From positions 1 to 25,199 of the IMG/VR virus record IMGVR_UViG_3300044858_004969: DNA of 25,199 nt, one strand, 5' to 3'. Origin of the DNA: a virus. This document shows positions 1-24,204 of this stretch, in pieces (positions within the stretch are counted from its first letter, which is position 1; each line of letters opens with the position of its first letter). The position numbers and the translations under genes were made by a program. The notes beneath the pieces were generated by a model. That model saw only the letters and a program-made list of their open reading frames with translations. It had not been told where the DNA came from and did no database searches.

Positions 1-506
1 TCCGCAAAATGCTCGTCAAACCGTCTATTAAGATCGGCTTCTTTCTTAGTAAGTGAGCCCTGCAATATCGCTAGTCTTTTTGATCCTGCATTTTCAGTTG
101 TAGCTGAAACTACAGGCGCAGCCGGCTTTTGCTGTGCCGCTGTGGCCCCGGCTTGCTTCTCTTTCCGCTGTGCCAGCAGTGTTTTCAATCGCTCTTGCCG
201 GCTCTTTTGCGTTATCAAACCTTGATCGAATCGCTGTTGCAACCGTCCCTTGAGTGCGGCCGCGCCTTGATCCGAAAGGTTATAGCCCATACGCGCCCGG
301 TCGTCAGCCTGTTTTGCTGTCCGATTCATGGCCCGACATTTCGCCAATGTGGCATACGTCTGAGGGTCAAGCGGTTCCTTGCCACGAATCGACAATTGCC
401 AGTTCGAAGCGGCCTGAGAACAGGCGGAATTGCCCGTTTTTGATCGGCTTGAAGGTTTTACCGGCTTCTTTGGTGCTGATGCTTTCTTGGGTGCTTTGGC
501 CGCCAT
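1..506 (-). CDS. Partial Lys/Pro-rich phage protein, paralogue of the next gene upstream
   Basis: This gene starts at ATG 506 and stays open to the left edge, so its C-terminus is missing. A GGGAG ribosome binding site lies 8-12 bases before the ATG and overlaps the end of the preceding gene (stop at 512-514). The N-terminus is rich in Ala, Lys and Pro (MAAKAPKKASAPKKPVKPSS). The next hundred residues match the N-terminus of the neighbouring 538-residue protein almost word for word, sharing SRSKTGN, AASNWQL, IRGK, KCRAM and RFDQGLITQKSR. After about residue 120 the two diverge. It lies downstream of the capsid genes, so a virion or ejected DNA-binding protein is possible, but that is inference from position and charge. 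I do not recognise a catalytic domain in the visible part. Confidence 0.8.
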   Translation of the reverse strand, partial: MAAKAPKKASAPKKPVKPSSRSKTGNSACSQAASNWQLSIRGKEPLDPQTYATLAKCRAMNRTAKQADDRARMGYNLSDQGAAALKGRLQQRFDQGLITQKSRQERLKTLLAQRKEKQAGATAAQQKPAAPVVSATTENAGSKRLAILQGSLTKKEADLNRRFDEHFA

Positions 507-511
507 CGTCT

Positions 512-2128
512 TTATCTCCCTGCCCGGGCGCGTCGCTGCCTGGCAACTTCCCGCCGCTGTTCTGGTGTCAATTGTTTGAGGTTTCTGGCTTCTTTCTGTC
601 GCTGTTCTTTGTTCACGGCGTTATCCAGCAGCTTCATGATTCGCCGCTCAAATTCCGGATAAACCTTGTCCAGCTTCTTCCCGCCTGCCACCTGGCCGGC
701 ATAGCGGTCAAGCTCGCGGGATGTCAGTCCGTAATTACGTTCGATATCAAACATCTGCAAGGCTTGATCGGCCTGGCGTGCCTGGTCCTGTGAGCTGGTC
801 GTATCGATCTTGTTTTGACCGACTTGCTCAATCCGATTCACGTTTCGGCTACGCGAAATCTTGCCGAATAAATTGGCGTCACCACGCATCCGGCCTTTGA
901 ACCGGTCCGCAAACATGGCCCGGAATTCTGCCAAATTGACAAACTCCTCATCATCGAAGAGCCCGCCGCCCTGTTTTGCCATAAGCGGAGCCCGCTTCAA
1001 TTCCTGCCCGAATTCGGCCGTTTTGCCGCTGGTCCAATTGCCCTTTTCTGATCGATTAAAGAGCTGCAACTGATCCTCTGGCCTCAGCCCTGATCGGCCG
1101 ATAGCAACCGCCCTTGAAAGCGGGGTTGTTTCATCAACCACTTTTCGCCAGATTTGAGGGGCAAGCCCTCGCAATGCCAGCCCTTCCGAAGCGGTACGCT
1201 CTGACAGACTGATCCCGCGTTGCTTTAGTTCTGATTCAATATCAGGGCTCTTCGAATCGCGGAAGAATCGGCCGGCATCAACGGAAGTTCCACGCCCCTC
1301 GGCAATGTTCGTTAGTGCGCCCTTCTGGCGTGCCTCGCCGGCGTCCTTAGCTTGAATGTACTGGACGTTTAAGTTCTTCACGCCCAGCCGTTGGGCTAAT
1401 TCGTAGCGGTGGTGTCCATTCACGACATACGTTTTGCCGTTGGCCGGGTCTTTCCAGACCTGGACCACGCCCGCAAGCTCTTTATTCCAGACCTTTGTTT
1501 CCTTGAATTGATCCGTAACGCCTACAGGCCCGGAAGTATTCATCTTGTACTGAAAACGCTCAGGATCGGCCTGTATTTCGCTGGTTTTCAATGTCCGAAC
1601 GCCCGATTGCGTTTCCGCCCTGGCCTTTTCTTTAGCCTTTACCTGGCTGATCAATCGCTTTGTTTCTGTAAGCCCCGGCCTAGGCTCGCGAACGGGTCTA
1701 AGAGCCGCCCGGCCTTTTTCGGTTGGTGCCAGGCGTGCAACGGTCTCTTTTTGTGGCTTGGCTTGTGTGGTGCCGTTACGCTCTGCCCGCTGTTGCAGGC
1801 GTTTCTTGAGTTCTTCGCTACGGCTTTTCTGGGTGATAAGGCCCTGGTCAAATCGCTTCTGTAATCGGCCTTCAAGAGCTGCCTGGCCCTTTTCTGAGAG
1901 CTTGCCGGTTCTGCCCTGGTCAACGGCTTGTTTCTTTTGCCGTGCCATTGCCCGACATTTGCCCAGCGTTTTATACGTGTCTGGTTCAAGAGCCGCCTTT
2001 CCTCTAATTGCAAGTTGCCAGTTACTCGCAGCGCGTGAACAAGCGTCGTTCCCGGTTTTCGAACGGGTTGACGGCTTTTTCGGTGCTGTAGGCTTACCCG
2101 GCTTTTTGGCTTGTGCAATCGGTGGCAT
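512..2128 (-). CDS. ParB/DdrB-like nuclease-fold phage protein with basic N-terminus
   Basis: The product is 538 residues. Residues 1-30 are Lys/Pro-rich and residues 30-115 form the domain shared with the following paralogue. Residues of roughly 175-290 resemble the ParB/sulfiredoxin superfamily in its phage DdrB-like form: an opening like LKTSEIQADPERFQYK, then VVNGHHRYELAQRLG, where the GHHR motif sits where ParB-type proteins place their conserved G-H-R segment. The C-terminal third is helical and charged, ending in a very basic tail (REVARQRRARAGR). In related phages such proteins are usually long, poorly characterised and encoded near the head genes. Binding or nicking DNA is plausible but not shown. 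The ATG at 2128 has an AAGGG ribosome binding site. The fold assignment is moderately sure; the role is unknown. Confidence 0.7.
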   Translation of the reverse strand: MPPIAQAKKPGKPTAPKKPSTRSKTGNDACSRAASNWQLAIRGKAALEPDTYKTLGKCRAMARQKKQAVDQGRTGKLSEKGQAALEGRLQKRFDQGLITQKSRSEELKKRLQQRAERNGTTQAKPQKETVARLAPTEKGRAALRPVREPRPGLTETKRLISQVKAKEKARAETQSGVRTLKTSEIQADPERFQYKMNTSGPVGVTDQFKETKVWNKELAGVVQVWKDPANGKTYVVNGHHRYELAQRLGVKNLNVQYIQAKDAGEARQKGALTNIAEGRGTSVDAGRFFRDSKSPDIESELKQRGISLSERTASEGLALRGLAPQIWRKVVDETTPLSRAVAIGRSGLRPEDQLQLFNRSEKGNWTSGKTAEFGQELKRAPLMAKQGGGLFDDEEFVNLAEFRAMFADRFKGRMRGDANLFGKISRSRNVNRIEQVGQNKIDTTSSQDQARQADQALQMFDIERNYGLTSRELDRYAGQVAGGKKLDKVYPEFERRIMKLLDNAVNKEQRQKEARNLKQLTPEQRREVARQRRARAGR

Positions 2129-2148: not shown

Positions 2149-2250
2149 TCAATATTTCTTGTCGCAAGTGCAGCCCTTTTTGCTGCCCTTGTGTTTTGTG
2201 CTGCTTTTTGCAGCAGGCTTGGCTGTTTTCGGTGCGGCTTTCTTTGCCAT
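2149..2250 (-). CDS. Tiny lysine-rich basic protein (33 residues)
   Basis: A short reading frame fills the gap between the connector-like gene and the ParB-like gene. It begins MAKKAAPKTAKPAAKSSTKH and ends with a CTC motif, and has 11 lysines, two cysteines and only one acidic residue. An AAGGA ribosome binding site lies 8 bases before the ATG, the start is 3 bases after the preceding stop, and the next gene starts 20 bases after its stop. The spacing and ribosome binding site argue for a real gene despite its length. The composition is like the Ala/Lys/Pro tails of histone-H1-like proteins and matches the N-termini of the two following genes. DNA binding or condensation is inference. It could also be a detached copy of that tail. 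Confidence 0.6.
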   Translation of the reverse strand: MAKKAAPKTAKPAAKSSTKHKGSKKGCTCDKKY

Positions 2251-2253
2251 TTG

Positions 2254-3117
2254 TCAGTTCCTTACGCATACATTGAGATTGATAACAACGTCGTATTTTT
2301 GGCTTGTGGCATAGCTTTTCACTTTCACCGTCGCGGCGGTTAAGGCGCTATTCGCCATTGCCCGGAATTCAGCGGCTTTTCTACGGTATGCCGACGAATC
2401 TTCTTTCATGCTTACCTGGGCCATACAAATCAGGTGGCAGGCATAAAGTGCGCAGGCCCTTTTTAGTGCCGGCGTCAATTCGATCCCCTTGCCCGATTCG
2501 ATTGACGTTTTCAGCCAGTCGGGCGGTTCATCGTGCCGCGTGCCCCAATATTGGCCGTAGGCCGATGTGTAGCGGCTAAATGTGTATCTGTCGTTGTGTG
2601 ACCGCATAACGACATTATCAAGCCACAATCGGGCGGTAATCTGATGTTCTTCGAAGCCCGTCCGGTCAAAATCGCTCTTACACTGATCAATCCAGGGGGC
2701 AACCGTGCGCAGGTCCTCGATGGTCGTATAAGGGCGCTGGCTTACCGGCAAGCAACTTGCCGAATCACCAGGGGCAGGCTTCAGCGTGTAAGAGCCCCGG
2801 CAAACTTCATAGGTCAAGCCGCCTGAGGTTGCCAACAGTCGCCACTGATAAGAGCTGGCTGGTATTTCATGGGCGCCGGTGGTGGCAATGGTGATAAGGC
2901 CGTTATTGGCATTTGACCAGGCGGCCGTTATGCCCGCGTCGTCAAGTGCTTCGGTTTCATCGCCTCGCCAGACTTCCACGGCTAATACGTCACCGGCAGA
3001 CCAGCCTGTTACGGCTGATCCTGCCAGGTTGACGATTTGCAGGCTAAAAGCCCGGTAGGCTCTTGCGGAGCCTTCCAGGTCAAGCCGGCTTGTGACGGGT
3101 GTATCACTCAGGGGCAT
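2254..3117 (-). CDS. Putative head-tail connector with Ig-like N-terminus
   Basis: I prefer the ATG at 3117, five bases after the capsid gene stop, to the TTG at 3186 that would overlap that gene by about 60 bases. No clear ribosome binding site is visible for either. The product is 287 residues. The first 110 or so alternate beta-strand-like segments (AFSLQIVNLAGSAVTGWSAG, LAVEVWRGD, YQWRLLATSGG, EVCRGSYTLKP) and look like the Ig-like N-terminal domain of baseplate or fibre proteins. The second half is helical and contains ALKRACALYACHLICMAQVS followed by SAYRRKAAEFRAMANSAL, which resembles helical connector or head-completion proteins. Position just after the capsid gene supports a head-completion role. 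No family was identified with confidence. Confidence 0.6.
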   Translation of the reverse strand: MPLSDTPVTSRLDLEGSARAYRAFSLQIVNLAGSAVTGWSAGDVLAVEVWRGDETEALDDAGITAAWSNANNGLITIATTGAHEIPASSYQWRLLATSGGLTYEVCRGSYTLKPAPGDSASCLPVSQRPYTTIEDLRTVAPWIDQCKSDFDRTGFEEHQITARLWLDNVVMRSHNDRYTFSRYTSAYGQYWGTRHDEPPDWLKTSIESGKGIELTPALKRACALYACHLICMAQVSMKEDSSAYRRKAAEFRAMANSALTAATVKVKSYATSQKYDVVINLNVCVRN

Positions 3118-3122
3118 GAGAA

Positions 3123-4091
3123 TTACGCCGTCAAGATAGAACGGTGGATAACGCAGTGATCTTTGCGGTGTTCCTTCACATTGCAAAGAGTTCTGACTGT
3201 AATCCGATTAAATGGCCCGCCTGTAGCGCCGAGATTTTCGTCATACGAAAATGTCAGAAGGACCGGAATCCCCATGACATTGGCATAACGAAAATTGACT
3301 GTCCCTGAAGGCGGTTCAAGCGGAGCGGCCGCAAATACGCAAGCGTTACGGTGAAATACCGCCGTCGAGTATGTCAGGTTGGGCGAGGTTCCCGATGTAA
3401 CTGACTGTGGATCTTCCAGGAACTGAAAACCGTATTGCGGCTGGATAACGCCGTTATCGCGCAGCTCGCCGGCTTTACGGTCGCTGATTGCAGCAACTTT
3501 GATAAAGTTGTCATCTTGCAACCACTGGTGATAAATCTCTGAGTGGCCGACAACAAACAGATTTGCCCGGTCGCCCAAAGGAATTTTTCGAGCCGAAAGA
3601 ACCTTGCGAAGATTGACAAATTCAGCAAAAGTCACCTTTGCCGGGTTTGTGTTTGTCACACTCGAAGAAGTGTTGCCAGAGACGTTGTAAGTGCCAATGA
3701 CAAACTTTGCCGCAACCTTGGCATTCAGATATTCAATCATCTGAATCATGACCTTGCTGATGGCTTGGTCAATGAGTGCCGGATTGTCTGCCACTCGTGC
3801 CGACTCGTAACTCGTCACGGTGAAAGACTTCGTAGGCATATCATCAAGTGCCAGGTCGGTTGAAGTCGTCGTGACGTTCTTCGTTCCCGGCGCTGTGGTA
3901 ATAGCGTTTACGACATCACCATCGACATCAACCAAGTTGATTTTTACGGTGGCGTTCGGTGGCATTGGCGTATCAGGAACGGGGTTCATATAAACCGCCG
4001 AAAGATAGGCCGCGTGCGGTGTCAGGTGTTGCGAAAGCTCAGTAAACCGAGCCGCAACGGTGTTCATGTACGTACTAAAATCGTTAGGCAT
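3123..4091 (-). CDS. Major capsid protein, P22-coat-like (HK97 fold)
   Basis: The 322-residue product forms the icosahedral shell. The N-terminal helix is followed by a beta-rich part (ATVKINLVDVDGDVVNAITT) and a helical segment (NPALIDQAISKVMIQMIEYL). The centre contains NLRKVLSARKIPLGDRANLF and VVGHSEIYHQWLQDDNFIK, then RDNGVIQPQYGFQFLEDPQS. This is the pattern of P22 gp5-type coat proteins, where a short recombinant-looking stretch predicts the position of the incubated subunit in its fold. A strong AGGAGAGG ribosome binding site precedes the ATG. It lies directly after the scaffold gene, as is usual. At 322 residues it is shorter than P22 coat (about 430), so the extra surface domain of P22 is probably absent or reduced. 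Confidence 0.85.
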   Translation of the reverse strand: MPNDFSTYMNTVAARFTELSQHLTPHAAYLSAVYMNPVPDTPMPPNATVKINLVDVDGDVVNAITTAPGTKNVTTTSTDLALDDMPTKSFTVTSYESARVADNPALIDQAISKVMIQMIEYLNAKVAAKFVIGTYNVSGNTSSSVTNTNPAKVTFAEFVNLRKVLSARKIPLGDRANLFVVGHSEIYHQWLQDDNFIKVAAISDRKAGELRDNGVIQPQYGFQFLEDPQSVTSGTSPNLTYSTAVFHRNACVFAAAPLEPPSGTVNFRYANVMGIPVLLTFSYDENLGATGGPFNRITVRTLCNVKEHRKDHCVIHRSILTA

Positions 4092-4106
4092 TATTCGCCT
4101 CTCCTA

Positions 4107-4832
4107 TTACTGTTTAAGACTTTTCTGGTAGCTGTTCACAGCGGCCGGATTAGTCCAGTCAACCGTTTTGGCTGGGTCTCTTGCCGCTTCTGGTGCGGAA
4201 CCTCCGCCGACTGCCTGAGCCCCGAACGCCCTTAGCGAAGGGGCAGGGGCTGGGGGTGCAGTCTGTTGGCGAACTTCGCCTTCGCCGGCTTGGGCAGGTT
4301 GCTCGCCTGCCTGGGCGCCGGCCGCCTCAAAAAACAGATAAGGCTTTGAGGAATGCGCTTTCCCGATTGCCTCCTGTATCACTTCAGGCGTCAAATCTTC
4401 CAGGTCGTCAAGGCTGGTTCCTGCCGCGCCTAGAATTTCTTGAATTGAAACGCCTTGCTGTAAATTCATGCCTTCAGGAAGTGCCGCATAAATCGCATCT
4501 TCCACGTATATCTGCTTTAATTCGCCGCGTAGCATGGCGTTTTCTTGCGCCAGCTCGTTTTCATTCGTAAACCGCTTGTATTGCTCTGTCTGCTGCTCCA
4601 TAGTCGTGACGGCTTCATCACGCTCTTGGATAAGCTGCTGTTGTGTCGATTGCAATTCACTAAGCTGCTTTTGCAGTTCTGCAATCTCTGCTTTTCGCCG
4701 CTGTGATTGTCGTACTGCCTTTTCGTATTCGCCGCGGCTTACAGTGTCGCTCATGCGATTCTTTCCGGGTAAAATGCCAGCGTCAGCGTCGGGAACGTCC
4801 CGGCTGTTCGATGGTTCAGGTTGTTCTGTCAT
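4107..4832 (-). CDS. Capsid scaffolding protein
   Basis: The 241-residue product is acidic at the ends and has a long coiled coil at about residues 33-105, rich in Gln and Glu (EIAELQKQLSELQSTQQQLI). A Pro/Ala/Gln-rich linker follows at 165-205, and the C-terminus is short and partly basic (NSYQKSLKQ). Scaffolding proteins guide capsid subunits into a prohead and then leave or are degraded, and they commonly show this coiled-coil and linker layout with a C-terminal coat-binding segment. It lies immediately upstream of the capsid gene. Its ATG follows the protease stop with no gap (TAAATG), so the two are probably translated in a coupled way. The call rests on architecture and position, not a signature motif. 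Confidence 0.75.
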   Translation of the reverse strand: MTEQPEPSNSRDVPDADAGILPGKNRMSDTVSRGEYEKAVRQSQRRKAEIAELQKQLSELQSTQQQLIQERDEAVTTMEQQTEQYKRFTNENELAQENAMLRGELKQIYVEDAIYAALPEGMNLQQGVSIQEILGAAGTSLDDLEDLTPEVIQEAIGKAHSSKPYLFFEAAGAQAGEQPAQAGEGEVRQQTAPPAPAPSLRAFGAQAVGGGSAPEAARDPAKTVDWTNPAAVNSYQKSLKQ

Positions 4833-5633
4833 TTATTTTTGTAAAACGGGCGGTATCGCTTGCGGGTCAACTTCCGCCGCAAAAACACCGTACGCATCAA
4901 AACCACTGCCTCGCAGATTACGCTCTGCAATCCAGCAATAGCCTTGATTGCCCCACTCTTGGCCCCAACTGTTTCTCATGCCGATCAGCCAGCCTGATTT
5001 GCTTTTCTTCATCGCAAATCCGCCCGATACGGCGTGATTGTGCCAGCCTGCCCGGTTTAAGGGTGCGCCCTCAGCATCCAGCGAATTAAAACTGCTGTTT
5101 ACCGGTACGCTGAAATTGAACGGGATTCGTAACTGGCAGGCCACGCAGAGATCATTGAAGTTTTGCAGGCGATAGCCGATTTCAATTTTGAATCGCTTCG
5201 CATTTTCCCTTGCCCCGGCATCAATTCGACGGGGATTAATTGTGCCGTGTGAAACTAACGCATCGTCGCAAGTGCCGCTCTTTTGCAATAGTGTTAAAGC
5301 CTCTGCGATTGAACTGCCCCGGTCGATACCACCACATAGATCAGCATAAACCAGCCAGGCCGATAAGGGCACATAGCCAAGCCCTGCGATATAACGGGCA
5401 TCTTCCAGGCTGGAAGCGGCTGCATGACCATTACAGGCCCCGTAAGAGCCCTGATTTTTGATTGAAACCTTGTAATCGGGGTTTGATCGATAGTCGAACT
5501 CTTGCCATTTATGTTCGGGCACATCGGGCAAAACACCGCGAACGGGCAGGATCAGACTGACGGGCGGCTCTTGGTTGCCAAGTAAAACCGTTTGACCGTC
5601 TGGCAGTTCCCATTGTTCCAAGCCTTCGATCAT
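4833..5633 (-). CDS. Papain-like (C1) cysteine protease
   Basis: The 266-residue protein carries the papain catalytic set. Gln61 and Cys67 lie in NQGSYGACNGHA, the counterpart of QGxCGSCWA; His200 lies in WHNHAVSGGF; and Asn221 lies in RNSWGQEWGNQGYCW. The oxyanion Gln, nucleophile Cys, His and Asn are all present in order, so it should be active. The region before the active site (about 60 residues) is short, and no signal peptide is visible, so it probably acts in the cytoplasm or inside the prohead. It overlaps the methyltransferase stop (TGATG) and abuts the scaffold gene. A role as capsid maturation or scaffold-processing protease is suggested by position. A lysis or virion-entry role is the alternative. 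Confidence 0.85.
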   Translation of the reverse strand: MIEGLEQWELPDGQTVLLGNQEPPVSLILPVRGVLPDVPEHKWQEFDYRSNPDYKVSIKNQGSYGACNGHAAASSLEDARYIAGLGYVPLSAWLVYADLCGGIDRGSSIAEALTLLQKSGTCDDALVSHGTINPRRIDAGARENAKRFKIEIGYRLQNFNDLCVACQLRIPFNFSVPVNSSFNSLDAEGAPLNRAGWHNHAVSGGFAMKKSKSGWLIGMRNSWGQEWGNQGYCWIAERNLRGSGFDAYGVFAAEVDPQAIPPVLQK

Positions 5634-6286
5634 CAGGCCATTGCCTCAAATAGCGGTGCTTTATTTAATTCGTTTTCAATGCGGTTTTGGGCGATTTTGG
5701 CGTATTCAGGATTCAATTCAATGCCGATGAATTTAAACCCTTCACGCAATGCCGCTAAGCCCGTTGAACCACTACCCATAAACGGATCAAGTATGGTTGC
5801 GCCCGGTTTTAATTTTAATTTCCTGATGCACCATTGCATTAAGGGCAATGGCTTTGCAGTCGGATGAAATCGCTGATTACTTGCCTGATATGACATGTCT
5901 TTATAGCAGTAAACACCGTGCCCGCCTTTCATCCAAGCCAGCTCGGCATCCGAAAGAAATGAACCATAAGCTGATTCATTACGCTTAATCCAGACAAGAG
6001 TAGTTCCTACTGGCAATCGGCTTGCAAAATGATTGCAGCCAAAAAGAATGACTTTATCCCATGCAAGCCACGGTGACGGATCAAAGGGCTTGTCATCATT
6101 GGCAATTTTCGGCCATTTTTTACCCTGTCCTGTCCGCCTATTGTTGTTTGAACCGCCTGTAAACCGCTTAGAATCACATTTGTAATTCATCCCGTACGGC
6201 GGATCGGTCACAATCGCATCAATTGAGCCAGCGTCCAGCTTTTTAATTACTTCCAGACAATCGCCAGTATGCAGGCTGTAACTCAT
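5633..6286 (-). CDS. Orphan DNA methyltransferase (beta-type N6-adenine or N4-cytosine)
   Basis: The 217-residue enzyme transfers a methyl group from S-adenosylmethionine to DNA. The catalytic motif IV is TDPPYGMNY (residues 27-35), and the S-adenosylmethionine-binding motif I is ILDPFMGSGSTG (165-176), which comes after motif IV, giving the beta arrangement. HPTAKPLPLMQW just before motif I is typical of this group. DPPY fits N6-adenine best, although N4-cytosine enzymes cannot be excluded. No restriction endonuclease is beside it, so it is an orphan enzyme, perhaps protecting phage DNA from host restriction. It overlaps both neighbours by a few bases (ATGA at the start, TGATG at the end), so it is cotranscribed with the protease and scaffold. 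Confidence 0.9.
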   Translation of the reverse strand: MSYSLHTGDCLEVIKKLDAGSIDAIVTDPPYGMNYKCDSKRFTGGSNNNRRTGQGKKWPKIANDDKPFDPSPWLAWDKVILFGCNHFASRLPVGTTLVWIKRNESAYGSFLSDAELAWMKGGHGVYCYKDMSYQASNQRFHPTAKPLPLMQWCIRKLKLKPGATILDPFMGSGSTGLAALREGFKFIGIELNPEYAKIAQNRIENELNKAPLFEAMA

Positions 6287-6771
6287 TTCAGCCCCGCCGC
6301 GATCAGTTTGAGTTCTTCAAGGCTTTTCGGGCTGATCGCCTGGATCAGCTTGCCGCTTTTGTCTTGAATGATGAGCGTTGGCAATCCGGTCCCGGTAACG
6401 TCTGACCGAAAACCGAGCTGGTCGATGTCCCGCTCTGTACTTGCGTATGTTCTGAATTCGATTCCTGCATCGGCCAGTAACCCGCGTACTACGCTGTTTG
6501 TGCGCCATGCCGCTTGCTCCGGCGAAGCTGGATCGACGATCAAACTAACCCAGGCCGCCTTTTTGGCAATTGGCTTGGTTTCATCCTCAATAATCGGGGG
6601 GGGCTTGGTATCGTCGCCCGATTTGAGAACTAAAACTTGCCCGCTCTGCTTACCCACAAAGTAGGTATAGCCGTTGTGAACAAATACCACCCGTTCCTCA
6701 GTCGATGGTTGAACCACCACCGAGGGCACGGATGATTGAGCCAGGATTAAAGCAGTAATCAAGCTGATCAT
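6283..6771 (-). CDS. Exported hypothetical protein, possibly thioredoxin-fold
   Basis: The 162-residue product starts with a hydrophobic stretch (MISLITALILAQSSVPS) that may be a signal peptide, although it lacks the usual basic residues at the front. The C-terminal 90 residues read like a thioredoxin-type fold: strand, helix (ASPEQAAWRTNSVVRGLLAD), strand, then a Gly-Leu-Pro-Thr-Leu segment (GTGLPTLIIQD) in the place of the cis-proline, and a final helix. There is no CxxC motif, so redox activity is unlikely. Overlap of ATGA type with genes on both sides shows it is part of the operon. It sits among small membrane proteins, so an envelope role is possible. The fold is a guess from pattern. 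Confidence 0.65.
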   Translation of the reverse strand: MISLITALILAQSSVPSVVVQPSTEERVVFVHNGYTYFVGKQSGQVLVLKSGDDTKPPPIIEDETKPIAKKAAWVSLIVDPASPEQAAWRTNSVVRGLLADAGIEFRTYASTERDIDQLGFRSDVTGTGLPTLIIQDKSGKLIQAISPKSLEELKLIAAGLK

Positions 6772-8708: not shown

Positions 8709-10103
8709 TTAGTATCCGTAGAATGGGGCTGTTGGCGGCGTAAAGTTGGCCAAGTAGCGGGCTGCGCCTTTGGTGATGCGAATATCGTCAATCTTTGCTA
8801 ACAAGTTACGGTCGCCGCCATTGTTTGCTAAATTGTCGCCAATCATTAGATTTCTTGTAGATGATCCGCAATTTCCAGGGTGCGTGCCGCTTGCCACCTG
8901 TGAACCATCTATGTACATGGCAAAAGCACTGCCGTTACGGACAATAGCTATATGATGCCAATTTCCGTCCCGATAATCGCCGGTTGACGGGATCAAAATT
9001 GGAGATCCTGACGAAAATTCGTTGATCCAAAAAGATGGCCTGAATTGACTAGCTGACGCCAAACCGTAAAAGGAAAACGCACCAGCCGACCATACATTAC
9101 TTTCGTTTGACATAAGTGTTTTACCAAAAGGGTTTCCTGTAGCCCCTACGGGTATATTAAACCAGCCTTCGATAGTAAAATTGTCTGTACCAAAATTAAA
9201 TAAACTTGTTGCAGAGATGGTTAATGAGGAATTAGACAGTCCCGGAAAGTCTCCAAATTGTCCAAACCCGCTTTTTGCCCCGGTGCTGCTTATTGTTACG
9301 CTACTTGACGTTACTGCCACCGAGTTCGGCCCGCTATCAACAAATGTTGTGCTGCCGTTTGTGCCGTCCATGTGCAGAAGCAACGAGACTTTATCGAAAT
9401 ACGGGTCTAGGTAGATACCATCCGCCCAGCTTAACACCTGTGCCTTTGTGGCGTTGTCGTGATATTGGTTGTAAACCAGAAACTCGGCCAGATCGACCTT
9501 TGCATAGCCGTTATAAACCCTGCCAATCTGCCCAATGACAGGATTTGCATTAACCGGCCCGCTTGTTGAGTTTGTAACACCGTTGACTTCAATCGTGACC
9601 GTTGTGCCGGTTCGCCTTGCGACAATCTCGCAGAATAGGCCGTTTGTGATAGCATTATTGTTGCCCTGAGCAATGTCGCCCAAGGGAGTGTACCAATACG
9701 TTCCTTGAAGATAAGTATTGAGCGAATTGAGGCTGGCGTCTGCCTCGCCAAAAAAGCCGCCGCCACTACCATCTGCCTCCCGCATGTAGCCGATCCAGTA
9801 GATTGTAAAATCCCCGGTCAATGTCATACTTGCGAAATTGATAATGTCATCGACACCATCAAAAGAGACGGTCTGAAAGCCGCTGCCCTGATTTGTTTTC
9901 AGGATTGGCTGTTTCGTGCCGGTGGCCTGCGTGGCGTGATTTGAGCCGCCTGATTTGTCGTTAAACTGCGTGACGTTAGAGCCTGAAGTCACAATATCTG
10001 TAGCGGAATACCACCTTTGCAGGCCGGTAAGCTGCGATGGGGTAAAAGCACCACCACCGCCGCCGCCTGTTGCCGTTTTGCGTTGTAAGAGCTTGGCAAT
10101 CAT
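8709..10103 (-). CDS. Two-domain LamG/lectin-like virion protein
   Basis: I choose ATG 10103, which overlaps the fibre stop as ATGA, instead of the TTG at 10133. The 464-residue product begins with a basic helix and a Gly-rich hinge (TATGGGGGGAF). Two concanavalin/LamG-like beta-sandwich domains follow, at about residues 20-225 and 240-464. The first shows GLQRWYSATDI, FNDKSGGSNHATQ and VSFDGVDDIINF; the second shows VSLLLHMDGTNGS, NFTIEGWFNIP and GNWHHIAIVRNGSAFAMYID. Such domains bind carbohydrate or protein ligands, so a receptor-binding or decorating role on the tail is likely. The short front helix could mount it on the fibre. No enzymatic residues are visible. Confidence 0.8.
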   Translation of the reverse strand: MIAKLLQRKTATGGGGGGAFTPSQLTGLQRWYSATDIVTSGSNVTQFNDKSGGSNHATQATGTKQPILKTNQGSGFQTVSFDGVDDIINFASMTLTGDFTIYWIGYMREADGSGGGFFGEADASLNSLNTYLQGTYWYTPLGDIAQGNNNAITNGLFCEIVARRTGTTVTIEVNGVTNSTSGPVNANPVIGQIGRVYNGYAKVDLAEFLVYNQYHDNATKAQVLSWADGIYLDPYFDKVSLLLHMDGTNGSTTFVDSGPNSVAVTSSSVTISSTGAKSGFGQFGDFPGLSNSSLTISATSLFNFGTDNFTIEGWFNIPVGATGNPFGKTLMSNESNVWSAGAFSFYGLASASQFRPSFWINEFSSGSPILIPSTGDYRDGNWHHIAIVRNGSAFAMYIDGSQVASGTHPGNCGSSTRNLMIGDNLANNGGDRNLLAKIDDIRITKGAARYLANFTPPTAPFYGY

Positions 10104-11269
10104 TGATTTTGCCCTGATACAAACGCTTTCCAAGACGTTCCGCCATCGACCGAATAAAAGACAAACGTGTCACTCTTGCCGTTGGTCGAAGTGAGCGTAG
10201 GGGCTGTGCCTGAAGGCCATTTGATCGAAGCAGGCCACGTCACTGCCCGAGCCGTGCCATCGGCTGTAAATTCCAGCGTGAAAGCCGACGCCATCGAGTT
10301 TGATGGAACGTTTGAAATCGTCAGTGTGGTTATGGCTGCATTCAGGCTGACTTTGAAGAAATTACTGCCTGAAAGGTCGAGCGTGAGCGTGCCGCTACTG
10401 ATTGCTGGGCTGGTGTAAGATTCCCGCCAAGATTGCAGCCGTGGTTTGTCCAGAATGTTACTGTTGTAATTCTGCTGGCCCGTAAATGTGTTTGTCGAAA
10501 GTGTTGCATACGCTGAAAGGCTGGCAATCGTCGCATAGCTTGAAAGGCTGGCAATCGTGGCATAAGTAGCCGCTGCGTTACTGGTTGTCAATCCATCGGT
10601 AATGCCGTATCCGGCAACTGTCGTCGGCTTGCCCGTGATATTGGCAAAACTGAAGTTGGCCGATGGAAGATACGTCGTAGCTGCGTTGGCTGTTGTCAAA
10701 TACAGGCTTAAATTCGGCGTTCCTGTAATGTTGCTGTAGGTTAAGCAGGAAGCTGTAATATAGCCCGATGGGTTCGTCTGCAAATAATAGGTGCTGGCTG
10801 CTGTGGTGCTAAGCAGGTAAACACCCAGATTCGGCGTGCCGGTCAGGTCAGAGTAAGCTCCTGACGTTGCCACAGTCGCAAATGTCGGTTTACCCGTGAT
10901 GTTTGACCAAGTCAGGCAGGAAACCGTCGCATAGTTGCCGATGGGCTGATAGGTCGATGCTGCCGTTGAACTCAACAGATATACGTTCAGATTCGGCAGG
11001 CCAGAAAGATCGCTGTAGAGGCCGCTGGTAGCGACATTGGCGAACGTGGGCTTGCCTGTCAGGTTCGCCCAAGTGTTATTGGCAATCGTCTGATAAACCG
11101 CTAGATTCGGCGTGCCGGGAAGATTGCCGTAATTGATCGATACGTTGCCCGTCATGTTATTGACGGACGTGACCATTGCCGTTCGATCATCCTGAAGGAT
11201 CGTTACGGAAAGGGGCGGGATGACGATTTGAGCCGGTGAATTTGCCAGTACAACAATCGGGTCAGGCAT
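10100..11269 (-). CDS. Repeat-containing tail fibre protein
   Basis: ATG 11269 is preferred, because AAGGGGG precedes it and it overlaps the Ig-like gene stop by eight bases. The product is 389 residues. Residues 50-240 consist of imperfect repeats built from NITGKPTFA, VATSGLYSDLSGLPNLNVYL and LSSTAASTY, typical of triple-stranded fibre shafts. A Ser/Ala-rich stretch (ATIASLSSYATIASLSAYAT) leads to a C-terminal domain (about residues 275-389) rich in beta strands (SGTLTLDLSGSNFFKVSLNA, WPASIKWPSG) common at fibre tips. It probably recognises or positions the host receptor, together with the following lectin-domain protein. Repeat copies differ slightly, so length variation between strains would be expected. 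Confidence 0.8.
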   Translation of the reverse strand: MPDPIVVLANSPAQIVIPPLSVTILQDDRTAMVTSVNNMTGNVSINYGNLPGTPNLAVYQTIANNTWANLTGKPTFANVATSGLYSDLSGLPNLNVYLLSSTAASTYQPIGNYATVSCLTWSNITGKPTFATVATSGAYSDLTGTPNLGVYLLSTTAASTYYLQTNPSGYITASCLTYSNITGTPNLSLYLTTANAATTYLPSANFSFANITGKPTTVAGYGITDGLTTSNAAATYATIASLSSYATIASLSAYATLSTNTFTGQQNYNSNILDKPRLQSWRESYTSPAISSGTLTLDLSGSNFFKVSLNAAITTLTISNVPSNSMASAFTLEFTADGTARAVTWPASIKWPSGTAPTLTSTNGKSDTFVFYSVDGGTSWKAFVSGQNQ

Positions 11270-11630
11270 TGCAGCCCCCTTTGCACTTGGCAATGGCCGG
11301 GCCTGCCAGAATCGTTCGCTTGTAGTTGGCTGCGTCGGTCATGTCCAGTTCCCAGCCGTGGCAATCTTCAGGCACATTGGCCGTAAGTTCTCGCGAAAAG
11401 GCCGGGGCTATGGTGCCATTAGCTGCACTGATTACCGAAACATTGCCTGTAAACACCTGCCCGTTCACCAGCAGATTGGCTTCAAACTGGTATCCCGTAA
11501 TGTTTACCGGAACATTGGTTGTGATGTTGTTGGCCGTAACCGGCGTCGTGATCTGGAAGGCCAGCGTGACGTTATTGCCGGGATAAAACTCGATGGGATA
11601 TGTTGCGGCGGTTTGTTTCCACTTACTCAT
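11262..11630 (-). CDS. Ig-like baseplate/fibre-attachment protein (BppU-like N-terminus)
   Basis: The 122-residue protein is almost entirely beta-strand-like: FYPGNNVTLAFQITTPVT, VPVNITGYQFEANLLVNGQ, FTGNVSVISAANGTIAPAF and WELDMTDAANYKRTILAG. This resembles the small Ig-like domain at the N-terminus of baseplate upper proteins, which attaches fibres to the tail. It lies between portal and fibre genes, overlapping both (8 bases each side). A stand-alone adaptor between tail and fibre is the likeliest role. The C-terminus ends in a Cys-containing tail (AKCKGGCNA). Confidence 0.55.
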   Translation of the reverse strand: MSKWKQTAATYPIEFYPGNNVTLAFQITTPVTANNITTNVPVNITGYQFEANLLVNGQVFTGNVSVISAANGTIAPAFSRELTANVPEDCHGWELDMTDAANYKRTILAGPAIAKCKGGCNA

Positions 11631-13254
11631 CTGTACCGCCCTCTTCGGTCATTTCTTCCGGCTCTTCTTCTGTCGGCCCTTCCGTGCCCGCTTCCGACGG
11701 TATCGGCTCTTCCGGCATAGTCTCAGGCTGAATGGGCTGGCCTGAAAGCGGGTCAGTCTGAGGCGCAATTTGAGCCAGGTAAGCAGCGTGACGCGCTTTT
11801 TGCTCGAAATGTTCCAGCGCTTCTTCCTCAGTAGCGCCCTTCATTTCCATAAACACTTGAACCGGGCCTGAAATTTCGTTGACCATCTCAAATTGCAAAT
11901 GCTGGTCGAAATCCGGTCCTGGTCGATTCTTTGTCAGGGGCGGCCAATCAATTGAGAGCTCAAAATCATTGATGGCTTGCGTAATAGCCGGCACATTGCC
12001 CAGCCAGGCGTTTACCGTCATCAGCGTTACCAAGGCCAAATCGCGTTCGGTCTCTTCGAGTAGCTCTTGCCGCGCTTCGCATTCTTCAATAATTGGCAAT
12101 TGCTCGGAAATGATCGCAACCCCGCTGGTAGCCGCATTGCTCTTGTTTCGCCAGGCTTCAGCCGGAACCCCGTGCATTTCCCCCTCAAGGTCAAGAAATG
12201 TATCCAGCTCTTCCCGATCCGCTGCAAGGTAGCTCAGGTCCGCTACAGTGGCTTCAATCGATGGCCCCTCAATTCCATCACCGATGATGTCATGAAGGCC
12301 AGGTAGCTTAACCACGTCGCCGGCAACGTACCGATCCGGTATCTTGAACGTGTCGGCAATGTTTCGGCCAAAAAGGATCGGCCGCGTCCAGAGTGTGTCG
12401 TCGGCAATCTTGGTTAATCTGGCGTTCGCATGGTCATTAATGCGCATCAGTTCCGGGCCTGGTGCCCAGCCCCAAAATTCTTTAGTTGGTGCTTCCCACC
12501 ACAAAAAAGCAAACGGGACCAAGCCTAAAAAGTTATCTTCAACCGAAACCGGCTCAAAAGTCCGCGTGCCGCGAGTGTTGGTCGATCCGTCCCATTTCTT
12601 TGTGCGATATACCGCGAAAGTTTCAGGCGTCCAGAGTCGGCAACGTGTCTGATTGTCGTATCGGTCAATCGTTGCCACTGCCCAGGGCGTTAGCGGCTCA
12701 TCAGGGCTACACCAGACACAAAACTCATCAGGTGCCCACAAGCGAAAATTAACGGCCGGCCTGGCAAGGGCAAGCGTTGCCTGCGATTGTTCCTGGTTTA
12801 CCTGCCCGTCTGAACTCATGCCAGGCTGATTCAGCTCTACCTGAATTGCACTCACCCCGCCCAAGGCTGCAAATTTCAAGGCCGCTTTCAGTTTTGGATT
12901 GATCCGCCCTTTGTTGTAAAGCATCTCCAGATAGCCGGTTGCGTCTGGATTGTCTTTGATCTTGCGGACCGGGTTGCTCATGTAATGCCGACGAATCTTG
13001 GCATTAATGATCGACCGGACAAAAGGGATAGACCGCCTTACCAAATCTTCGTTATGCACGCCCAGGCGGTGCGGGTAATCTTCCTGATAGGGCTGGAAAT
13101 TGCCCTCGTAGAAGTCTCGAACCGTCCTCGCCCGGTCAAGGCGCGGTTGTTCGTTTTTCAGCCCTTCACGGATTTCCTTGTCAATTGCCGCAAAATTAGC
13201 CGGCGTCGCTGACGTGGTGAAAACCGAGAGATTTCCCAAAATCCCAAGATTCAT
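11623..13254 (-). CDS. Portal protein
   Basis: The 543-residue portal forms the ring through which DNA enters and leaves the head. The sequence follows the terminase gene with an ATGA overlap, and the first 110 residues (ALD-type helices with FYEGNFQPYQEDYPHR, LVRRSIPFVRSIINAKIRRH) are in the style of portal N-terminal wings. The central region has WAPDEFCVWCSPDEP and a helical stem area near 285-400. The C-terminus is highly acidic and Pro-rich (EEPIPSEAGTEGPTEEEPEE). Length and gene position agree with portals of about 500-700 residues in P22-type and related phages. The call relies on position and overall pattern more than on one motif. Confidence 0.8.
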   Translation of the reverse strand: MNLGILGNLSVFTTSATPANFAAIDKEIREGLKNEQPRLDRARTVRDFYEGNFQPYQEDYPHRLGVHNEDLVRRSIPFVRSIINAKIRRHYMSNPVRKIKDNPDATGYLEMLYNKGRINPKLKAALKFAALGGVSAIQVELNQPGMSSDGQVNQEQSQATLALARPAVNFRLWAPDEFCVWCSPDEPLTPWAVATIDRYDNQTRCRLWTPETFAVYRTKKWDGSTNTRGTRTFEPVSVEDNFLGLVPFAFLWWEAPTKEFWGWAPGPELMRINDHANARLTKIADDTLWTRPILFGRNIADTFKIPDRYVAGDVVKLPGLHDIIGDGIEGPSIEATVADLSYLAADREELDTFLDLEGEMHGVPAEAWRNKSNAATSGVAIISEQLPIIEECEARQELLEETERDLALVTLMTVNAWLGNVPAITQAINDFELSIDWPPLTKNRPGPDFDQHLQFEMVNEISGPVQVFMEMKGATEEEALEHFEQKARHAAYLAQIAPQTDPLSGQPIQPETMPEEPIPSEAGTEGPTEEEPEEMTEEGGTDE

Positions 13255-14561
13255 GAGTCCACCATCACAAACGACATGACGAGAGCATCGGCCAGGTCAG
13301 GGCTTCGCCCTATTCGGCTTCTGATCTTTTCTTTTTCGGTCAGTTTCAACTTGTCTTTCCCTGTGATTTCGTAGGTAAACGCCTGCAATTCCCCGCGCAT
13401 CTCGCTCGCCAGGTGCGCCGGGATCACAAACGGAATTGGTTGCGTGTTTTGGTCTAGCCGCTGCCTCAGTCGCCAGGCGGCCGCTGTTTTCAGGTTTTCG
13501 AACCGCTTTTCAAAGCCCTTTGCCGCTGCCCCGCCCTGGAATCCAGTAGCGCCATGCAGGCCGGCAAGCTCTAGGTATTTCTTAAATCCCTCGCCTAATC
13601 CTGAGTGGTCATATACCACCCTGGCCGGCCGAATTTTGAAGCGGTCAGACTGCGTTTTTGCCCGTGCCGCCGTCTCTTCCATGCTCCATTGGTTCGACCA
13701 TTCCATGTGCAAAACTTGCCGCTGGTCACGTACCAAAATCACGGACCTATCACCACCGCGGCCGGCTGCCAGGTCGATTGTTAAAGCCGGGTCTGATCGG
13801 TATTCACCGTCAACCTTGCTGAAAACGGCCCGGTCAATCCAGTCACGCGGGTAAAGCTGCCCCTCTGCGCTGTCTGGAAACTCTGCCAAAACGTGCGACT
13901 GCCACCATATCGAATCTTCGCCATAATCCCGCCGTCTGTCATCCAGCCAATCAAGCCCGACAAAGCCGTCTGGGCTCCGCCTCTGCCCTGCCTTGATCGC
14001 TGGTGACTCCGTTGAAGGTATTTTGATTAATACCGTTGCCGGGTCAGGCTCGATCAGTTGCCGTTGGCACATCTCATAAAACGGGCCGTCAGGTCGAATC
14101 GGGTTGCCCAGGTAGATTCTTTTTTCCGGGTCCCAAGAGTTAATTGCGGCCTGCTTATCGGCTGTAAGAGCGCTTGATTCATCGACCAGCGCGAGCAGCT
14201 TTTCACCGTGATAGCCCGATGCCGCTTCAATGTTGTCTGGGTTAATCCCCGTACAAAACCAGTCTTTCCCAAGCTCAAGCGTGGGCGGCTTTTGCAGATC
14301 GCGGGCCTGCCCGTTAAGTTCGGAAGCGTAGTAAGCCCCGAAAATATTGGCCCACAAGATACGGATGAGCTGGTCAAATGTCGGCCCCGTCGTGACTACT
14401 TTTGAGCCCTGGAACGAAAACAGATACCAAAGCGCGATACCCGCCCCTAAAAACGACTTGCCGACACCGTTACCCGCTGGAACCAGAATCGTTCTTATTT
14501 TCGGGTCCGCTGCTGCCCTGCAAATCTCTATCTGCTTCGTCCAATACGGCTTCCGATTCAA
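13251..14561 (-). CDS. Terminase large subunit (ATPase and nuclease)
   Basis: Counting from TTG 14561, Walker A is GNGVGKS at 30-36 and Walker B is LLALVDE with Asp127-Glu128. The nuclease domain has Asp263 in LTIDLAAGRGGD, Asp318 in VVYDHSGLGEG and Asp422/Asp425 in RSPDLADAL, so both the DNA-pumping motor and the cutting activity look intact. The reading frame remains open upstream to a stop at 14691-14693, through a plausible N-terminus (AYLRKQAAEFEASK, KDYSAYKTSPTRFNLEV), but this stretch has no ATG or GTG. Either TTG 14561 is used (GGAAG is close before it), or translation begins at a non-standard codon near 14690, or by +1 frameshift from the small terminase gene. Portal start overlaps the stop (ATGA). 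Confidence 0.92.
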   Translation of the reverse strand: MNRKPYWTKQIEICRAAADPKIRTILVPAGNGVGKSFLGAGIALWYLFSFQGSKVVTTGPTFDQLIRILWANIFGAYYASELNGQARDLQKPPTLELGKDWFCTGINPDNIEAASGYHGEKLLALVDESSALTADKQAAINSWDPEKRIYLGNPIRPDGPFYEMCQRQLIEPDPATVLIKIPSTESPAIKAGQRRSPDGFVGLDWLDDRRRDYGEDSIWWQSHVLAEFPDSAEGQLYPRDWIDRAVFSKVDGEYRSDPALTIDLAAGRGGDRSVILVRDQRQVLHMEWSNQWSMEETAARAKTQSDRFKIRPARVVYDHSGLGEGFKKYLELAGLHGATGFQGGAAAKGFEKRFENLKTAAAWRLRQRLDQNTQPIPFVIPAHLASEMRGELQAFTYEITGKDKLKLTEKEKIRSRIGRSPDLADALVMSFVMVDS

Positions 14562-19876: not shown

Positions 19877-20071
19877 TTATTCTGCTTTCTGTGCCTGGCT
19901 ATCCAATTCCTTTTGCTTTTCGACCCAGATTTCTTCGCGGTTCACGTCAATATCTTCCGGGGCATCAATCCCTAGTTTGACCTTATCCCCCCTTATTTCT
20001 ACGACTGTCACTTTTACAGCCCCGCCCGCAATGATCAGAGATTCGTTTTTCTTCCGACTAAGAACCAGCAT
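19877..20071 (-). CDS. csrA: CsrA-family RNA-binding translational regulator
   Basis: The 64-residue protein aligns over its whole length with CsrA/RsmA: MLVLSRKKNESLIIAGGAVK, then RGDKVKLGIDAPEDIDV and NREEIW. The key residues Leu4 and the Arg of REEI (Arg44 in E. coli) are present. CsrA binds GGA motifs in mRNA leaders and usually blocks translation. Upstream of its own ATG, the Shine-Dalgarno region reads ACACGGAGGT, which matches the published CsrA motif, so it probably controls itself. The C-terminus carries a short helix (EKQKELDSQAQKAE). It lies before the replication initiator, suggesting a link to the control of replication genes or of host mRNAs. Confidence 0.93.
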   Translation of the reverse strand: MLVLSRKKNESLIIAGGAVKVTVVEIRGDKVKLGIDAPEDIDVNREEIWVEKQKELDSQAQKAE

Positions 20072-23093: not shown

Positions 23094-23135
23094 ATGTACT
23101 CCCGTCAAAATGCCGAGTTTTTGAGTAATGTACTC
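23094..23135 (+). repeat. Pair of ATGTACTC direct repeats before the integrase
   Basis: ATGTACTC occurs at 23094-23101 and 23128-23135, 34 bases apart, between the att core and the integrase start. The second copy is part of a near-palindrome GAGTAATGTACTC. They could be arm-type integrase sites or an operator, or chance. Confidence 0.35.
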
Positions 23136-23157
23136 AATTATCGATGTTTTTGCTGAT

Positions 23158-24204
23158 ATGGGACGCCCTAAGCACAACGTCCCAACTTTACGTCATCATG
23201 CCCATTCCGGGCAGGCGTTCATCTTGTTCAATGGCTTGACCATCTATCTAGGCCACGCCGGGTCGGCTGAAGCGGCAGCGGCCTATCAATCGATTCTGGC
23301 AAACATTACCAAGAGCGGCGAGGCTGTGATTCTGCCTGTTGAGAATCGGCCAAAAATGACCGTAGGCGAAATAGTTAATGAGTATTTGAGTAACTTACCT
23401 AAAAACTACCCTGCTGGCTCTGGCGAGCCAAAAATGATCAATCTCGCGATCCGTTGGTTACTGCGTTTACAGTTTGCGACAATTCAGGCTGAATCATTTA
23501 CCCCAGCCAAGTTTCTTGAACTTCGCCAGGCGTGGGTTGATGCGGGCAAAAGCATCCTTACTATCAATAAATGGCACAACTACACATTGAATCTGTTTCG
23601 TTGGGCGGCTATGACCGACAGGCTCCCGGCCAGCGTCTGGCATTCACTTCAGACCGTCCCCAAGCTCAAGCCTGGTCGATCACCCGCCAAGTCGGCAAAG
23701 ATAGTTCATCCCGTGCCGATTGCAGACGTGGAAGCGGTCAAGGCGGTGGTGTCGGATGTGATCCGTGATTTGATCGACCTGCAAATATTTACCGGGATGC
23801 GGTCAGGCGAAGTCTTAAGCATGACCACCCGGCAGATCGTTGATAACGTCTATCGGCCTGATAAGCATAAGAATAAATGGCGTGGACACAAGCGGGAGAT
23901 TCACCTGGGGCCGCAAGCACGCGCGATCATTGCCAGAAGGTCGGCTGGATTGTCGCCAGATGATCGGCTGTTTAAGCTGCGGGTTGACAGTTATACCACG
24001 TCAATCGACCGTGCCTGTAAGCGGGCAGGGGTAGCGCATTGGCACCCCCACCAGCTTCGGCATTTGGCCGGGTCGATGGTACGGGATAAATATGGCCTGG
24101 ATGCCGCTCAAGCGTTTCTAGGCCACGCCACGGCCAAGACAAGTGAAATTTATGCAAAGGTCAAAACTGATCTATCGAAACAGGCGGCTGAGGAGATTGG
24201 TTGA
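23158..24204 (+). CDS. int: Tyrosine recombinase integrase
   Basis: ATG 23158 (MGRPKHNVPTLRHHAHSGQA) is preferred because integrases of this style begin this way; ATG 23128 adds ten residues and neither has a strong ribosome binding site. Residues 60-165 are a helical core-binding domain; the catalytic part follows. From the longer start the catalytic set is Arg225 (FTGMRSGEVLS), His308 and Arg311 (HPHQLRH), His333 (FLGHATAKTSE) and Tyr342 (EIYAKV), all present. The enzyme should insert the phage at the tRNA site lying just upstream. The N-terminal pattern (MxRPKxNVP, a basic arm-binding region) is one I associate with planctomycete integrases. Confidence 0.92.
   Translation: MGRPKHNVPTLRHHAHSGQAFILFNGLTIYLGHAGSAEAAAAYQSILANITKSGEAVILPVENRPKMTVGEIVNEYLSNLPKNYPAGSGEPKMINLAIRWLLRLQFATIQAESFTPAKFLELRQAWVDAGKSILTINKWHNYTLNLFRWAAMTDRLPASVWHSLQTVPKLKPGRSPAKSAKIVHPVPIADVEAVKAVVSDVIRDLIDLQIFTGMRSGEVLSMTTRQIVDNVYRPDKHKNKWRGHKREIHLGPQARAIIARRSAGLSPDDRLFKLRVDSYTTSIDRACKRAGVAHWHPHQLRHLAGSMVRDKYGLDAAQAFLGHATAKTSEIYAKVKTDLSKQAAEEIG

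Follow-up and report, generated by a model that had tools for sequence, protein, structure and literature searches.

How tailed phages choose the proteins carried inside their heads is known for only a few model phages. In phage P1, the proteins DarA and Hdf have a common domain, lie on the inner face of the capsid, contact DNA and are ejected (PMC12810830), and deletion of DarA/Hdf excludes other Dar proteins, including DdrB, from the head (PMC12810830; PMC5512222). The N-terminal signals of T4 and of phage P1 DarB suffice to package reporters (PMC9026906; PMC9024508). According to one of these reports, a targeting sequence common to the Dar proteins of phage P1 might be expected, but BLAST shows none (PMC9024508). 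We compared with these systems two neighbouring genes in a stretch of 25,199 bases (IMG/VR record IMGVR_UViG_3300044858_004969, positions 1-25,199), which we call the window. Their products, named P1 and P2 here (the phage is always written as phage P1), open with one conserved basic N-terminal region, the header, and then diverge into unrelated sequence. We consider it somewhat probable that the header is a module carried by head-internal, probably injected polyvalent proteins. Because P1 and P2 display an explicit conserved N-terminal module on otherwise unrelated neighbours in a head gene cluster, the idea of a tag becomes directly testable.

The N-termini of P1 and P2 are 67% identical over query residues 7-117 (about 111 residues; expect value, E, 1.2e-41). 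Their local alignment scores 376, while 300 shuffles reached 79 at most, which places the similarity far above chance. Across the header DNA, 61% of aligned bases are identical, non-synonymous divergence (dN) is 0.32 and synonymous divergence (dS) is saturated, which indicates that the duplication behind the pair is old. The original prediction, that some 110 residues are almost identical, thus stands for the sharing and its extent but not for the near-identity, and saturated dS likewise rules out a recent duplication. Both copies are under strong purifying selection: in comparisons of the window with its close relatives L004 and L005, dN/dS over residues 1-118 is 0.00 and 0.09 for P1 and 0.033 and 0.018 for P2. 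All three close relatives (L003, L004 and L005) keep both copies. One could see here an ordinary partial gene duplication, with the shared part merely a stable N-terminus and the start of P2 taken from P1 by recombination. A duplication did occur, and the distal half of P2 differs in blocks between relatives. Yet copies so diverged at synonymous sites remain under strong selection, and two further lineages retain the header within their head clusters; we give this explanation slight weight.

In a structure model of P1 (mean predicted local distance difference test score, pLDDT, 81.4), a disordered basic tail (residues 1-23) precedes four helices within residues 28-118 (28-41, 51-72, 79-94 and 100-118); after a low-confidence linker (119-151), an alpha/beta domain begins near residue 176, and the rest is helical. 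Residues 1-27 hold seven lysines or arginines and no aspartate or glutamate. Over 118 residues the header carries a net charge of +19 in P1 and +18 in P2, and the isoelectric point (pI) exceeds 10 for the whole window P1 and the whole L004 P2. Across lineages the header core reads KTGN-x2-CS-x-A-x-S-x-W...L-x2-CR. Charge and pI would equally suit the main rival explanation, in which the header is a basic DNA- or RNA-binding domain with which P1 and P2 compact or steer the genome as it is packaged, with no tag and no need of a capsid partner. The DNA-binding region of ParB type that fold comparison predicts in P1, and the basic 33-residue peptide encoded beside the pair, could be read the same way. 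Counter to this, the best-conserved part of the header is the core and not the basic tail; moreover, nucleic-acid binding is compatible with packaging, as DarA and Hdf of phage P1 contact DNA and also anchor to the capsid (PMC12810830). We regard this rival as unlikely, and a plain DNA-binding role could coexist with docking.

Searches around the header can be told briefly. A SHOCT domain (PF09851) at P2 residues 88-100 was considered and rejected, as it scores 10.5 bits where the cut-off asks for 27 (E 0.56). PADLOC and NCBIfam scans gave nothing useful, and Pfam scans of P1 and P2 to E 1 and 5 reported no DarA family; we take the Pfam library to include a DarA N-terminal model. A narrow word search of the literature, which is no proof of absence, turned up nothing on this header or on the four-cysteine motif described below.

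Beyond the header, P1 matches a ParB family (phrog_1033, E 0.0032), and its residues 171-481 match residues 1011-1326 of the 1362 in a portal family (phrog_21, E 3e-54). Fold comparison with the PDB, over ranges that covered the ParB-like part with the header outside them, indicates by model that P1 holds a ParB/sulfiredoxin-type N-domain fold (7bm8_A, Z 11.0, root-mean-square deviation, rmsd, 2.6 over 96 residues; sulfiredoxins reach Z 7.9 at most). Behind it lies, again by model, a ParB-type region for which DNA binding is predicted: residues 257-379 match 4umk_D, Spo0J with parS (Z 9.8, rmsd 4.6 over 116 residues), and residues 177-377 match ParB 6t1f_D (Z 9.7, rmsd 3.9 over 183 residues). 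For this helical region Z alone is weak; rows for ParB, Spo0J, Noc and KorB stand in the right order behind the N-domain. The top row, 7bnr_A, combines Z 12.0 with rmsd 11.2 over 148 residues, so the two ParB sub-domains are placed differently in P1. The NGHHR motif of P1 sits at what we take to be the GERR position of partition ParB proteins. Three of the ten best fold matches in BFVD (ranks 2, 3 and 9) bear the name large polyvalent protein associated, and the other seven are uncharacterised or unnamed; a PDB sequence search with the P1 alignment, whose profile omitted the header (columns at most 10% occupied), gave a best E of 0.16. A role in plasmid partition was rejected, given the head-cluster setting and the lack of any reported ParA among the proteins scanned, which did not include every open reading frame (ORF).

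The C-terminal parts of the two proteins are indeed unrelated, as originally proposed, although almost all of that of P2 had to be read from relatives, outside the window; full-length P2 has 819 amino acids (aa) in L003 and L004 and 762 in L005. A model of residues 136-302 (pLDDT 90) shows a long helical hairpin and a small beta part. Residues 142-292 are 55% identical to gp39 of Proteus phage Brookers (E 3e-43). The same domain occurs in 358 plasmid records, 357 of them from Enterococcus (25.6% identity and E about 1e-6 in the 19 matches listed) and one from Parabacteroides at 47%. In the one Enterococcus plasmid examined it stands near the start of a 790-aa protein in which Pfam places ArdcN above the cut-off, Peptidase_M78 just above it and MPTase-PolyVal below it. 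Residues 188-295 of L004 P2 also match a head maturation protease family (phrog_3778, its residues 13-104 of 593, E 2.4e-5). Structure searches with the domain returned generic-looking helical hairpins and coiled coils over model residues 1-90 in the PDB and, in BFVD, a single match under E 0.001, to an uncharacterised protein; its alignment reached a best E of 0.55 against PDB sequences.

The distal part of P2 follows another pattern. The P2 genes of L004 and L005 are 97% identical over their first 902 bases and 92% identical at L004 bases 931-1127. Beyond base 1127 there is no L005 match (E<=1) up to the downstream gene, apart from a 59-bp linker, 98% identical, that encodes KFSRGGQLAPGRGTE. 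L004 519-696 resembles L005 327-506, at a different place (E 1e-6 without composition correction). The distal part is exchanged between relatives, in what looks like the domain rearrangement of polyvalent proteins (PMC5512222). A separate observation concerns a 1277-aa protein (L029:4768-8598) that carries the P2 domain, repeated HPRxxxG..GGQF-type motifs and FSRR near its end; Pfam found nothing at E 0.001 in the larger proteins of L029 and L111.

Because the search for relatives of the header relied on short exact patterns, distant copies may have escaped it. Besides the three close relatives, the IMG/VR scans found the header in two more distant phages. In L187 it occupies a 101-aa protein start that ends at the contig edge (53% identical over a 45-residue query), encoded 434 bp downstream of a portal homologue that itself follows a terminase homologue (E 7e-32 and 8e-94, in a small search set). 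In L111 an 800-aa protein (278-2680) has a divergent header, 37% identical (E 5e-5 relative to the candidates; whole-sequence E 1.7e-4 and best-domain E 0.009 before its addition to the profile). That protein also carries the ParB module, and its gene lies just upstream of scaffold and capsid homologues (E 5e-62, 4e-5 and 4e-10, respectively, again in a small search set). The original idea of a packaging tag for virion proteins is partly supported: two more phage lineages have the header, in head clusters. That it marks an entire cargo family is not demonstrated; the family is small, and an apparently unrelated motif of related phages, described below, fits the idea better. A GRGTxxR motif is present in five copies in the L111 locus, by translation in the header protein, and recurs after the linker in P2 and inside the L187 start; it is possibly a linker or a processing site.

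The adjacency of the L111 header gene to a scaffold gene raises another explanation, in which P1 and P2 assist morphogenesis, as scaffold-associated or head-size factors, and need not be ejected. Besides being packaged, DarA and Hdf of phage P1 influence head size (PMC12810830). Set against this, the domain content (ParB, polyvalent-associated) and the exchangeability of the distal parts point to DNA or the host as the target, and not to assembly alone; we find the helper role improbable.

Returning to head cargo as the favoured reading, P1 and P2 would be made together with the head genes, probably loaded into the prohead, and would then exit with the DNA. The header, consisting of a disordered lysine-rich tail and a small helical domain (about 95 residues), would dock varied payloads onto one shared prohead partner (scaffold, portal or the inner face of the capsid), onto DNA, or onto both. 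The prohead is indicated as the docking site by the late-gene setting; docking itself rests on position and analogy, as the header lacks a family match and a solved sequence relative. The payload of P1 would be a ParB-type module binding nucleoside triphosphate and DNA, and that of P2 a polyvalent-associated helical-hairpin domain with exchangeable cassettes behind it. A duplication that joined the 5' part of a P1-like gene to another gene probably gave rise to the pair; in relatives, the P1-like gene sits between portal and scaffold.

Several results weigh against this reading. In Pfam, PHROGs and NCBIfam the header reaches the threshold of no family, and its alignment has 0 matches at E<=1 among PDB sequences. 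It is found on five other contigs only, none from genomes or phage records: no relative was confirmed when 84,980 species genomes were scanned twice by pattern, and 50,697 phage records gave no significant match (best E 2). Pfam scans of P1 and P2 detect no MPTase or other processing domain, nor any curated polyvalent hallmark (MPTase, ArdC-N, LPD, DdrB-ParB or DarA-N), and the polyvalent assignment therefore rests on the link to the ArdcN protein, the ParB fold and the setting. The ParB/DdrB-like domain of the original prediction is supported as ParB, by phrog_1033 and by fold; its DdrB-like part is not, as PF18763 (DdrB-like ParB) has 0 matches at E<=10 in G002, a relative encoding nearly the same protein. 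The phrog_3778 match is not found in L005 P2 at E<=1. Brookers gp39, 163 aa long, is encoded away from the virion genes, with NYN and Kil genes on either side. Among the best 80 of 119 IMG/VR relatives of the P2 domain, 77 lie outside the window's lineage, and 74 of these are ORFs of at most 231 aa, counted from the first possible start (the others have 246, 364 and 1277 aa), so the domain usually stands alone and, with gp39 where it is, does not serve as a virion marker. Finally, the virion role of the P-SCSP1 protein discussed next is speculation by its authors, and a word search of the main text of the cryo-electron microscopy paper on P-SCSP1u returned no 'core protein', 'internal core', 'internal protein' or 'ejectosome'.

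The ParB module of P1 occurs in many phage proteins. We considered the best 80 of 330 relatives (three from the window's lineage; 47 non-redundant), taking the first possible start of each ORF, with several ORFs cut by locus ends. These ORFs range from 391 to at least 4880 aa. N-terminal extensions were scanned for 45 of the 47, one of them from the window's lineage, trimmed to 620 residues before the ParB module: each of three portal PHROGs is matched by four of the 45, a minor head family by two and an FtsK-like family by two. Neighbouring ORFs (136 at 44 loci, at most two per side, same strand, cut to 500 aa) gave matches of which 17, among those listed (25 of 132 families), have a function, in every case head, packaging or connector. 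The module is characteristic of proteins encoded next to head genes, and in some of these it is fused to portal-type sequence; a narrow word search, no proof of absence, turned up no literature on ParB-portal fusions. The ParB-module proteins of L117 and L169 open with a short stretch that, by eye, we take to resemble SAP/Rho-N DNA-binding domains.

Among the 50,697 phage records, 20 have the ParB module and 17 of these are Prochlorococcus phages. In P-SCSP1f it lies inside a 2563-aa protein encoded after an SLT-domain protein and before the tail fibre, and matches at 30.5-31.8% identity (query residues 146/175-501). The counterpart in P-SCSP1a is gene 21, which is among those speculated to encode internal virion proteins (PMC9860041). 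A presumed internal virion protein of P-SCSP1 is thereby tied to a ParB module.

A second shared motif accompanies the ParB module outside the window's lineage. The four-cysteine (4-Cys) motif C-x2-G-x(1-4)-CG-x2-C-[ILVM]-x(4-9)-C occurs at 24 of 77 such ParB loci, 14 of them with at least two ORFs bearing it (non-redundantly, 12 of 46, nine with two or more). It is found at 0 of 77 P2-domain loci and 0 times in five shuffles of three forward frames. Around portal and ParB genes, seven neighbouring ORFs carry it in L143 and five in L130, with ORFs counted from the first possible start, and further loci include L154, L186, L112, L113 and L189-L229. With up to seven such ORFs per contig, tags common to neighbouring proteins of the head cluster may be a recurring arrangement. 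Pfam finds LPD1 in two of ten chosen 4-Cys ORFs, a zeta toxin in one, DnaJ in one, a sub-threshold match in one and nothing in five. An LDAL-type scan yielded 41 loci, 12 with two or more such ORFs, some on contigs already counted. The motif was rejected as a homologue of the window header, since hhalign gave a probability of 0.1, equal to the reversed control, in a weak test (effective sequence number, Neff, of the header profile 1.7).

From these two cases a broader and more tentative proposal can be drawn, one we hold to be possible rather than expected: tailed phages may load head cargo by modular headers common to neighbouring genes, with payloads swapped behind them and a dedicated prohead partner for each header type, the KTGN/CS helical header and the 4-Cys motif being two types. 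Arguing against a simple N-terminal tag, the 4-Cys motif is not strictly N-terminal; the 84 LDAL-type copies lie less than 60 residues from the first possible start in 33 cases, 60-200 in 20 and more than 200 in 31. If the proposal is true, modular headers make cargo genes recognisable from sequence, and the 4-Cys motif could mark such genes in uncultured phages.

The coordinates of the pair and its surroundings are collected in the table. The major head gene lies about 1 kb upstream of P1 and P2, and the setting is the same in L003 and L004. In relatives, the gene 3' of P2 has a weak Neck1/tail-completion match (E 0.0037), and genes beyond it are taken, by order, to be tail genes. The protein encoded at 2254-3117 has an L004 homologue that matches a PHROG virion structural family at E 0.045 only. 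The integrase gene suggests a temperate phage, and the window virus is probably a temperate tailed phage.

Table. Positions of the P1/P2 features and of other genes in the window
Feature	Position	Strand	Remarks
P2, first 168 aa	3..506	-	open at contig end
P2 residues 142-168, start of helical-hairpin + beta domain (142-292 in relatives)	3..83	-	
P2 residues 1-118, second header copy	153..506	-	
P1, 538 aa	512..2128	-	basic tail, header, linker, ParB-like module, helical C-terminus
P1 residues 261-380, ParB/Spo0J/KorB-type helical DNA-binding region (predicted)	989..1348	-	fold match only
P1 residues 176-268, ParB/sulfiredoxin-type domain (by model)	1325..1603	-	NGHHR motif
P1 residues 119-151, low-confidence linker	1676..1774	-	
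P1 residues 1-118, shared header region	1775..2128	-	
P1 residues 1-23, Lys/Pro/Ala-rich tail	2060..2128	-	pLDDT <50
33-aa basic peptide	2149..2250	-	net +10, CxC near end; just upstream of P1
Putative head-completion/adaptor protein	2254..3117	-	by position; homologues in L110, L111
Major head protein	3123..4091	-	phrog_283, E 2.7e-13
Scaffold protein	4107..4832	-	Phage_scaffold 27.4 bits (below 35-bit cut-off); L111 homologue precedes capsid gene
Papain-family (C1) cysteine protease	4833-5633	-	Pfam 36.4 bits; immediately upstream of scaffold gene
DNA methylase gene	5633-6286		within variable stretch 5634-6685
Tail-fibre-like protein	10100-11293	-	
Portal protein	11623..13254	-	phrog_64, E 8.3e-5
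Terminase large subunit	13251..14561	-	phrog_2, E 8.7e-31
Integrase gene	23128-24204		

Other features of the window stand apart from the argument. The lysine-rich 33-aa peptide is conserved in L004 and also present in L005 with an in-frame length difference; its start, a basic K/A/P stretch, resembles that of P2. The papain-family protease may be a lysis protease or a prohead protease. The stretch 5634-6685 has no DNA match in the available parts of L003 and L004, with flanks 96-100% identical, and is thus variable between close relatives. Similarly, the capsid-gene stretch 3118-4140 has no DNA match in L005 (flanks 89-91%), and a capsid-protein scan returned the L003 and L004 contigs only, not L005. 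A CsrA gene (19877-20071, minus strand; PF02599, 73.4 bits) lies away from the structural genes.

Looking across the described systems, the Dar proteins of phage P1 share with the window pair an internal head location, inferred in our case, and DarA and Hdf have a positively charged side that faces DNA (PMC5512222; PMC12810830). There too a domain, DarA-N, is common to two proteins, DarA and Hdf, and a ParB-domain protein, DdrB, occupies the same head (PMC5512222; PMC12810830). In contrast, the window pair has no DarA family match reported in the Pfam scans, no MPTase and no match to the DdrB-ParB model, the ParB module of window P1 includes a helix-turn-helix (HTH)-type region, and packaging is here a supposition. 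The T4 capsid targeting sequence and the phage P1 DarB signal resemble the header as N-terminal segments that send different proteins into the head, but they span about 10-30 residues and are proteolytically removed in T4, whereas the header has about 118 residues, mostly predicted helical (PMC9026906; PMC9024508). The P-SCSP1 protein has a homologous ParB module in 2563 aa next to a tail-fibre gene (PMC9860041); it differs in being one giant protein of a podovirus with no header match in tblastn.

With polyvalent proteins (PMC5512222) the window pair has in common a multi-domain make-up, ParB, mosaic distal parts and genes in the head cluster, and P2 shares a domain with an ArdC/peptidase plasmid protein. 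Several disparate, exchanged domains are likewise combined here (header, ParB and, by model, HTH-type region in P1; header, hairpin and block-variable distal part in P2), next to late or virion genes in the window, L003, L004, L111 and L187. Unlike the polyvalent proteins described, two neighbours carry one explicit header, which is neither ArdC-N nor a reported DarA-N match. Our best reading is that the window pair are polyvalent, Dar-like head proteins with an explicit shared header.

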